Under the pieces are notes generated by a model, which ran no database searches, was not told where the DNA came from, and saw only the letters and a program-made list of their open reading frames with translations. From contig JALEMG010000033.1 in NCBI GenBank assembly GCA_022768375.1, forward strand, positions 1 to 64,000: DNA of 64,000 nt, in the 5' to 3' direction. The position numbers and the translations under genes are program-made. Source of the DNA: Lentisphaeria bacterium. GTDB lineage: Bacteria > Verrucomicrobiota > Lentisphaeria > Victivallales > Victivallaceae. Of this stretch, positions 61,364 through 62,603 are shown one piece after another (positions within the stretch are counted from its first letter, which is position 1; the number at the start of each line of letters is the position of its first letter).

Positions 61364-62260
61364 TTACCGGAAAACTCCGAGGCGTTTCGCCTCCAGTTCC
61401 AGTATCCGCGCGTAGACGCTTCGCTTGTCCGGGATGTCGGGATCGGCCATGAGTCCGGCGATCTGCCGTTCCAGCAGTTCCGTGTCCGGGAAAAGGGTGC
61501 CGTAGTCGTCGAACAGCGGCCCCCACGCCACGCCCAGCATCGCCTCGCGGCGGACGGGAAACGTCTCCCGCACCCACGCCATGACGCTGCGGAAGTACTC
61601 CAGCAACTCTCCGGCATCCGGGTCGTTCCGGTGCGCCGCCATGTAGATTTCGATGTTGCCGTAACTGAGCCAGTTCAGCGCGGTCTCCAGATAATCCTGC
61701 CGCAGGGGGTCTCCCGCCAGATAGTCGCGCCCGAGTTCGGCCGCCGGTCCGTCGGGGCGGCTGAACTTCGCTTTGGCGTCTTCCAGCCACGGTCCGGGGT
61801 AGACCGCGTTGCGAAGTTCCTGCATGGTGAGCGGTTCTCCGGCGAAGTTGACGGCCCGGAAGAACTCCAGTTTCTCCTGCTCGCCGCCCTCGCAGACGTA
61901 TACCGGGATGCGGGCGTGGAGGATTTGCCGTTTCTCCTCCGCCGTCAGGTCGGCGAAGCGGCGTCCCTCCACGGCGAAATCCCCGCCCGCATAGCGGCAG
62001 AAAGCGAGTATGCGCCGCCGGCCGTCCAGCACCTCCCACGCGTCGTCGCCGTTTTTCACCCAGTGCATCACCCCCAGCGGATAGCCCCGGAGAAGGGAGG
62101 TGACGACCGCGTCGCGCCTCGCATCGTCGCAGACGAACTCCCGGTGGTACGCGGGACGGATGGTCAGACGGCCGCGGTATCCGAAGGCCCCCTGTTCTCC
62201 GCGGTCGGTGAAATTTTCCGCGATGGCTTCGACGGTGATTTGGTTCAGTTCAAATTTCAT
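61364..62260 (-). CDS. DUF262 domain protein
   Basis: A 298-aa protein. The N-terminal half is a DUF262 (ParB/GmrS-like) fold: PAYHREFVCDDARRDAVVTSLLRGYPLGVMHWV followed by WEVLDGRRRILAF, where the DGQQR-type motif binds nucleotide or acts in nicking. Typical two-domain defence proteins add an HNH DUF1524 half, which is missing here. AAGGAG lies 7 nt before the ATG. It has an unusually long leader (about 300 nt) with a consensus promoter at 62575-62603. Confidence 0.8.
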   Translation of the reverse strand: MKFELNQITVEAIAENFTDRGEQGAFGYRGRLTIRPAYHREFVCDDARRDAVVTSLLRGYPLGVMHWVKNGDDAWEVLDGRRRILAFCRYAGGDFAVEGRRFADLTAEEKRQILHARIPVYVCEGGEQEKLEFFRAVNFAGEPLTMQELRNAVYPGPWLEDAKAKFSRPDGPAAELGRDYLAGDPLRQDYLETALNWLSYGNIEIYMAAHRNDPDAGELLEYFRSVMAWVRETFPVRREAMLGVAWGPLFDDYGTLFPDTELLERQIAGLMADPDIPDKRSVYARILELEAKRLGVFR

Positions 62261-62329
62261 GGGCGTGCTCCTTGACGTCGGAGGCCGCGGACGCGGCGGG
62301 GACCTCCGGGATTGGAGGAATGCATCTGC

Positions 62330-62337
62330 AAAAAAAA
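62330..62337 (-). other. T8 tract after the nested hairpin
   Basis: Eight A residues on the plus strand give U8 in the leader RNA, about 20 nt after the nested inverted repeat and flanked by GGAATGCA/TGCATTCC (62317-62324 with 62342-62349), which puts the U-run in a loop. It may allow early transcription release, but no compact stem abuts it. Confidence 0.35.
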
Positions 62338-62347
62338 GAGGTGCATT

Positions 62348-62509
62348 CCTGATTTACACGCCTCAACACGCCTACCACAGCGCCTATCACAATGCAAACG
62401 CAGAAATGCACCGTGTATACGTGATGATACACGGCACAAAACAGTTGCTTGTGATAGTCAATCAGGCAATACTTCAGCATTGTGGTAGTTTGTTGAGGCG
62501 GCCTGATTT
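62348..62509. repeat. Nested inverted-repeat element in the DUF262 leader
   Basis: Four perfect arms nest: CGCCTCAACA (62359-62368) with 62491-62500, CTACCACA (62372-62379) with 62481-62488, CTATCACAA (62384-62392) with 62449-62457, and CCGTGTAT (62411-62418) with 62427-62434; 35 paired bases in total with an 8-nt apical loop. Direct repeats CCTGATTT (62348-62355 and 62502-62509) flank the unit. An inverted copy, AATCAGGC (62460-62467), inside it allows alternative pairing. It may be a MITE-like insertion with an 8-bp target repeat or a structured RNA; neither is proven. Confidence 0.6.
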
Positions 62510-62574
62510 TATGCGATTTTGGAAAAAAGATTGCGGGTGAGGAACCTCCTTTGTGATGACACCCCCCTGTCGGC

Positions 62575-62603
62575 AATATAATGTGACCGAAGGCCTTTGT
62601 CAA
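62575..62603 (-). promoter_or_regulatory. Near-perfect promoter facing the DUF262 gene
   Basis: On the minus strand, TTGACA (62603-62598), a 17-nt spacer and TATATT (62580-62575). The leader from here to the start codon is about 300 nt and holds the nested inverted repeat, plus a 5' GGGTG...CACCC hairpin. It is among the best promoters in the window. Confidence 0.75.

Follow-up and report, generated by a model that had tools for sequence, protein, structure and literature searches.

The window analysed here, a stretch of 64,000 nt from a Lentisphaeria bacterium, carries near its end, on the minus strand, a promoter-like sequence, a set of inverted repeats, a U-tract and a type II restriction-like gene. 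The sequence-only reading of this DNA had described the promoter, four nested perfect inverted repeats of 10, 8, 9 and 8 bp, a direct repeat CCTGATTT flanking them with an inverted copy inside, and eight U residues behind them. All were found again, at the following positions.

62575..62603, minus strand: putative sigma-70-type promoter TTGACA-N17-TATATT (62603-62575), 11/12 matches
62491-62500/62359-62368, minus strand: inverted repeat, 10 bp
62481-62488/62372-62379, minus strand: inverted repeat, 8 bp
62449-62457/62384-62392, minus strand: inverted repeat, 9 bp
62427-62434/62411-62418, minus strand: inverted repeat, 8 bp
62348-62355 and 62502-62509: direct repeat CCTGATTT, with the inverted copy at 62460-62467
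62330..62337, minus strand: U8 tract (T8, 62337-62330), directly 3' of strand s4
61364..62260, minus strand: GmrSD_N/DUF262 type II restriction-like gene, 298 aa (Pfam PF03235, E 1.4e-10; PADLOC REase_II, E 6.6e-77)

No other promoter-like sequence turned up in 521 bp, and this one places the predicted transcript start near 62568. The minus strand folds at -70.1 kcal/mol, compared with -50.8 +/- 4.1 kcal/mol for dinucleotide shuffles (z -4.75, 0/200). A BLASTN search for further copies, as suggested by the sequence-only reading, returned one more copy from the genome studied here (contig C3, 81% identity over 109 nt) and 39 matches in 19 of 78 family genomes. Two covariance models were used, R1 from 37 copies of a type I and R2 from 36 copies of a type II only. 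R1 matched the type I core at 62330-62514 (minus strand), which ends with the U8 tract, at 158 bits (E 9.9e-30), and R2 independently matched the same element at 34.2 bits (E 1.6e-6). The two subtypes are built alike, and copies of either one are recovered by the model of the other. R1 found the element in 35/78 family genomes and 49/137 order genomes, diverged type II copies being among the matches, and R2 in 56 of the 198 genomes of the class Lentisphaeria. About 100 distinct copies were found in total (99 model matches; the minus-strand match in L027 is the antisense of a true copy), with up to 13 per genome (G021, by R2) and four by R1 in the genome studied here (C9, which is the window, C3, C62 and C44). 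Upstream of the copies, TATATT or TATAAT was exact in 64/94 cases, versus 33/94 after shuffling. An AAAGGA-like motif with no obvious start codon lies 30-100 nt before the core in 59/94 copies, and near 62548 in the window.

Among 388 genomes sampled across the phylum, only two weak matches fell outside the class (E 1.2e-5 and 8e-5). A pattern scan of GTDB gave true matches only in gut metagenome assemblies of Lentisphaeria/Victivallis; pattern matches from other phyla and from IMG/VR had neither the stems nor the U-tract and were attributed to chance. The type II pattern had no matches in IMG/VR, and phage and plasmid records contained no match to the RNA. The sequence-only reading had recognized no known family, in agreement with Rfam 15, which gave nothing above threshold in the window and nothing at E<=1 for two type I loci; at further type I and type II loci, Rfam matches lay only outside the RNA. 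The literature searched on Victivallales and Lentisphaerae yielded no RNA of this kind, a 2017 list of 224 candidate RNAs having been compared through Rfam only. As judged from these comparisons, 62330-62514 (minus strand) represents, as its type example, a new RNA family of the class Lentisphaeria, a leader RNA of roughly 180 nt in gut Lentisphaeria that probably has two mutually exclusive folds.

The strands of this RNA follow one another from 5' to 3' in the order a-1-2-a'-3-4-4'/s2-5b-3'-6-2'-6'-1'-5b'-s4-U-tract and form the helices listed below.

62508-62501 (AAUCAGGC) with 62467-62460 (GCCUGAUU), minus strand: helix Pa; 75.7% of cells paired in type I (A1) and 86.5% in type II (A3), double changes
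62500-62491 (CGCCUCAACA) with 62368-62359 (UGUUGAGGCG), minus strand: helix P1; 95.7% paired, type II 98.3%
62488-62481 (CUACCACA) with 62379-62372 (UGUGGUAG), minus strand: helix P2; 99.2% and 100% paired
62457-62449 (CUAUCACAA) with 62392-62384 (UUGUGAUAG), minus strand: helix P3; double changes in 7/7 modelled pairs, half-swap test
62437-62427 with 62418-62408, minus strand: helix P4, apical hairpin; 97.8% of cells paired in type I, tandem G-U wobbles conserved
62412-62401 (s2, GGUGCAUUUCUG) with 62351-62340 (s4, CAGGAAUGCACC), minus strand: helix P5, competing putative terminator stem; covariation
62398-62393 (UUUGCA) with 62358-62353 (UGUAAA), minus strand: helix P5b, extending P5; double changes
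62383-62380 with 62371-62368, minus strand: helix P6, small hairpin whose loop holds the 3' strand of P2; 92.6% paired, 4/4 pairs double-changed

These helices are found again, with compensatory changes, in about 100 relatives. Pa reads AGGCU/AGCCU or ACGUC/GACGU in relatives, and double changes affect 7/7 modelled pairs of P1 in type I and 6/7 pairs of P2 in type II. Only 64.8% of the P3 cells are paired, because its 5' strand is imperfectly aligned. At the base of P4, GUGCC (s1, 62437-62433) pairs with GGUGC. P5 and P5b together reach 97.3% paired cells in type I, with double changes at 132/188, 136/185, 137/184 and 140/181, and P5 in type II is 97.5% paired, as GGCAC/GUGCC. Loops such as UUGUGCC and CUUGUA are strongly conserved. 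The suggestion that the inverted copy of CCTGATTT permits a second fold proved a good lead, since two conserved sets of pairings were found that probably compete. Copies and covariation, whose joint absence had been named as the outcome that would count against an element here, are both clearly present.

When the seven helices of type I were scored together, 91.0% of cells were paired and both sides had changed in 32 of 53 pairs; the values for type II were 91.5% and 23 of 32. The covariation score was.327 for type I (.179 shuffled, at most.097 slid) and.439 for type II (.215 shuffled, at most.105 slid). Further helix-set scores also exceeded their slid controls (type I,.252 versus at most.092; type II,.252 versus at most.137). 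Because related sequences can exceed shuffles without any structure, we gave more weight to the slid control and to a half-swap test. In the latter, the 5' and 3' halves of the same copy paired at -46.9 kcal/mol and halves swapped between copies at -28.4 kcal/mol, 97/99 copies lying below the swap mean. Wobble pairs numbered 121 against 11 A-C mismatches (P3 and the constant P4 wobbles left out), and this excess of G-U over A-C argues for selection on the minus-strand RNA as a folded molecule.

Analysis of the genes behind the RNA was done on the 89 copies with at least 450 nt of downstream sequence, counting ORFs of at least 60 aa. In 85 of them, the start of an ORF on the same strand lies no more than 220 nt from the U-tract (median 37), which argues that the RNA is a cis leader. 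The sequence-only reading had hesitated between a MITE-like insertion and a structured RNA, cis-regulatory or free; covariation, this same-strand gene and the conserved U-tract favor the structured cis-regulatory RNA. The products are varied: SNase-type nucleases with an apparent signal peptide (about 15 copies), EcoRI_methylase (11), zinc-ribbon/Sel1/ankyrin proteins (about 20, joined by single linkage), two families of unknown function (7 and 6), GmrSD (2, window included), a type IIG restriction-methylase (1), as well as sugar-nucleotide enzymes, an M48 peptidase and an AIDA-like adhesin. A large zinc-ribbon membrane protein family of unknown function is found repeatedly behind type II RNA (L121, L136, L145, L170 and others). 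Tandem RNA-gene-RNA-gene duplications occur at L009, L033, L147, L152 and L162; where readable, the two units carry genes of one family. Near-full-length EcoRI-type methylases number 14 in the order, and 10 have the RNA 46-53 nt upstream; a full-model check of two of the four others found no RNA before them. The RNA is therefore associated with this gene family but separable from it. The only EcoRI_methylase match in the genome studied here (L117, G000:C62:12209-13194; 248/345 profile positions) stands behind its own type II RNA.

Three loci (L157, L159 and L056) show the order RNA, EcoRI-type methylase, DUF262 protein, and the window protein is 50-52% identical over 296 aa to their DUF262 proteins. 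The window locus has lost the methylase from this order, and its DUF262 protein lacks about 60 aa at the C-terminus. The window gene is probably a remnant of such a restriction-modification operon that kept the leader and lost its methylase partner and a C-terminal segment. By eye, and not as a profile match, the C-terminal region of the related genes L202 and L205 reads like an HNH segment. The window protein has the motif DGRRR and its relatives DGQQR.

From the conserved helices, the shared strands and the gene that almost always follows, we consider it likely that the RNA is a cis-acting two-state leader, a conditional transcription attenuator in which some signal would decide between the folds, and possibly a new riboswitch class. 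In a state R, P1-P2-P3-P4 would form one long hairpin, with s2 held in P4 and s4 left free next to the U-tract, and the polymerase would read through into the gene. In a state T, s2 would pair with s4 (P5/P5b), with P6 inside the loop and Pa closed, and this stem directly before U8 would terminate transcription at the U-tract. A small molecule, an ion, a protein or folding kinetics may set the choice. R and T have strands in common and each is nested when taken alone, so the RNA would have to choose. The segment s2 (GGUGC..) is complementary both to its hairpin partner s1 and to s4. All five core s2:s4 pairs are preserved in 94/98 copies, s1:s2 was found in 90/98 by a permissive search for the best match within the stretch, and both hold in 86/98; the 10-bp s2:s4 score exceeded the best shuffled-region match in 98/98. 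Between subtypes, s2 and s4 change together, from GGUGC/GCACC to GGCAC/GUGCC. The copy L171 shows a joint change (s1 AUGCC, s2 GGUGU, s4 ACACC), and L118 has GCGCC/GGCGC/GCGCC. Evidence for the double use of s2 comes mainly from the subtype comparison and these few copies, since the core five s2 positions hardly vary within type I.

The s4-plus-U-tract pattern fits 98/99 model matches, and the U-tract was also seen in the inspected copies. No local terminator hairpin was found before T8 in the window, so the long-range s2:s4 stem is the only good one that could act as its terminator. Terminators with such long loops are unusual. Type II additionally has a local terminator hairpin, GGCAC-UUC-UUCG-GAAUGUGCC. 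A local type I terminator, GGUGUA-loop-UGCACC, was considered and set aside, being visible by inspection in part of the copies only and absent from the window. In the energy calculations, R is favored over T in 36/37 copies, with a mean difference of 11 kcal/mol, so T would be reached kinetically or with help. Control of translation, with s4 pairing to s5 past the U-tract and thereby freeing the Shine-Dalgarno sequence, was unsupported in general, as including s4 gave no relief. A hairpin hiding the Shine-Dalgarno sequence was absent from the other downstream genes tested and present in methylase genes (unpaired.29 versus.51 shuffled) and nuclease genes (.34 versus.50).

The element resembles transcription-attenuating riboswitches and orphan candidates in being a same-strand structured leader with conserved loops, probably competing folds that share strands and a terminal U-tract, and its cis position and the covarying structure of both subtypes are those expected of a transcriptional riboswitch. 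Unlike riboswitches, it has a long-range putative terminator stem in type I, is so far confined to Lentisphaeria without an Rfam match, and precedes unrelated accessory genes with no common pathway, which is atypical of metabolite riboswitches. Loci of type III toxin-antitoxin systems (ToxIN) are ordered promoter, structured RNA, terminator, gene. The Lentisphaeria loci have the same order; unlike ToxIN, they lack tandem antitoxin repeats, and the genes that follow the RNA belong to many unrelated families, none of them ToxN-like. A long hairpin of about 180 nt recalls 6S RNA (RF00013), from which the element differs in being multicopy and gene-linked; no RF00013 match rose above cut-off in the genome (best 12.2 bits, elsewhere). 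The tentative suggestion of a ligand- or protein-sensing switch class would place restriction-modification, secreted nuclease and surface/zinc-ribbon genes under one signal, such as infection, the presence of foreign DNA or a nucleotide second messenger. If so, one regulon would join restriction-modification operons and secreted nucleases with many unknown membrane proteins, and the ligand could reveal what gut Lentisphaeria respond to. The family itself is a large and well-supported addition to structured RNAs, coming from a class that has been little studied, and the pairings of both interlocking folds are visible in covariation; its leader is a ready test case for a long-range terminator competing with a more stable upstream fold.

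It is possible, though in our view doubtful, that the leader answers to a protein, by antitermination or autogenously, and is not a small-molecule riboswitch. LoaP/EAR-type antitermination elements are structured leaders before varied accessory, sometimes polysaccharide, genes, as is the RNA described here. Such diversity is easier to reconcile with a protein factor of processive or global action than with a single metabolite, and is too great for autoregulation; unlike LoaP/EAR, the Lentisphaeria element has a U-tract at its end and is mostly followed by single genes. A free small RNA acting in trans, beside an incidental or insulated gene, seems improbable. Its own promoter-like sequence, the U-tract preceding the gene and the many copies across many genomes fit this idea, but the same-strand ORF behind nearly all copies and the RNA 46-53 nt before most near-full-length EcoRI-type methylases do not, and the stem sequences differ among the copies of one genome, unlike those of one trans RNA. 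We also think it unlikely that the RNA is a single compact, multi-pseudoknotted molecule, perhaps protein-binding or catalytic, that does not switch. Pa and P6 can be drawn as forming pseudoknots with P1/P2, all supported together, so that some strands could coexist within one fold, with Pa, P2/P6 and P3/P5 as tertiary contacts, and the very conserved loops agree with this. However, GUGCC and GCACC cannot both be paired with s2 (GGUGC) at once, the P5 3' strand follows P1 almost without a linker, which is sterically hard, and either helix set alone is free of pseudoknots.

The idea of a MITE with target duplication is unsupported, as the CCTGATTT copies are internal pairing strands, belonging to helix Pa and, in part, to the 3' strand of P5, and are not repeated flanks in relatives. 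A DNA-level element, whether a MITE or an attC-like cassette recombination site, is scarcely credible, for although it is multicopy, sometimes in tandem with genes, and two copies look chimeric, the copies are diverged and not near-identical even within the genome, every copy has its own promoter-like sequence and U-tract, the readable tandem pairs reflect duplication rather than cassette gain, the strong wobble bias over A-C mismatch and the lack of phage or plasmid matches count against it, and the anatomy of promoter, U-tract and RNA-type covariation argues against an integron attC. The chimeric-looking copies (the L068:43-143 region, minus strand, and L032:1432-1605) have unpaired halves from different copies and may have arisen by recombination at the conserved UUUUGUGCC or as artefacts of assembly. 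At a minus-strand contig end (L055:1-400), three partial 3'-half copies stand in tandem with a period of about 138 bp.
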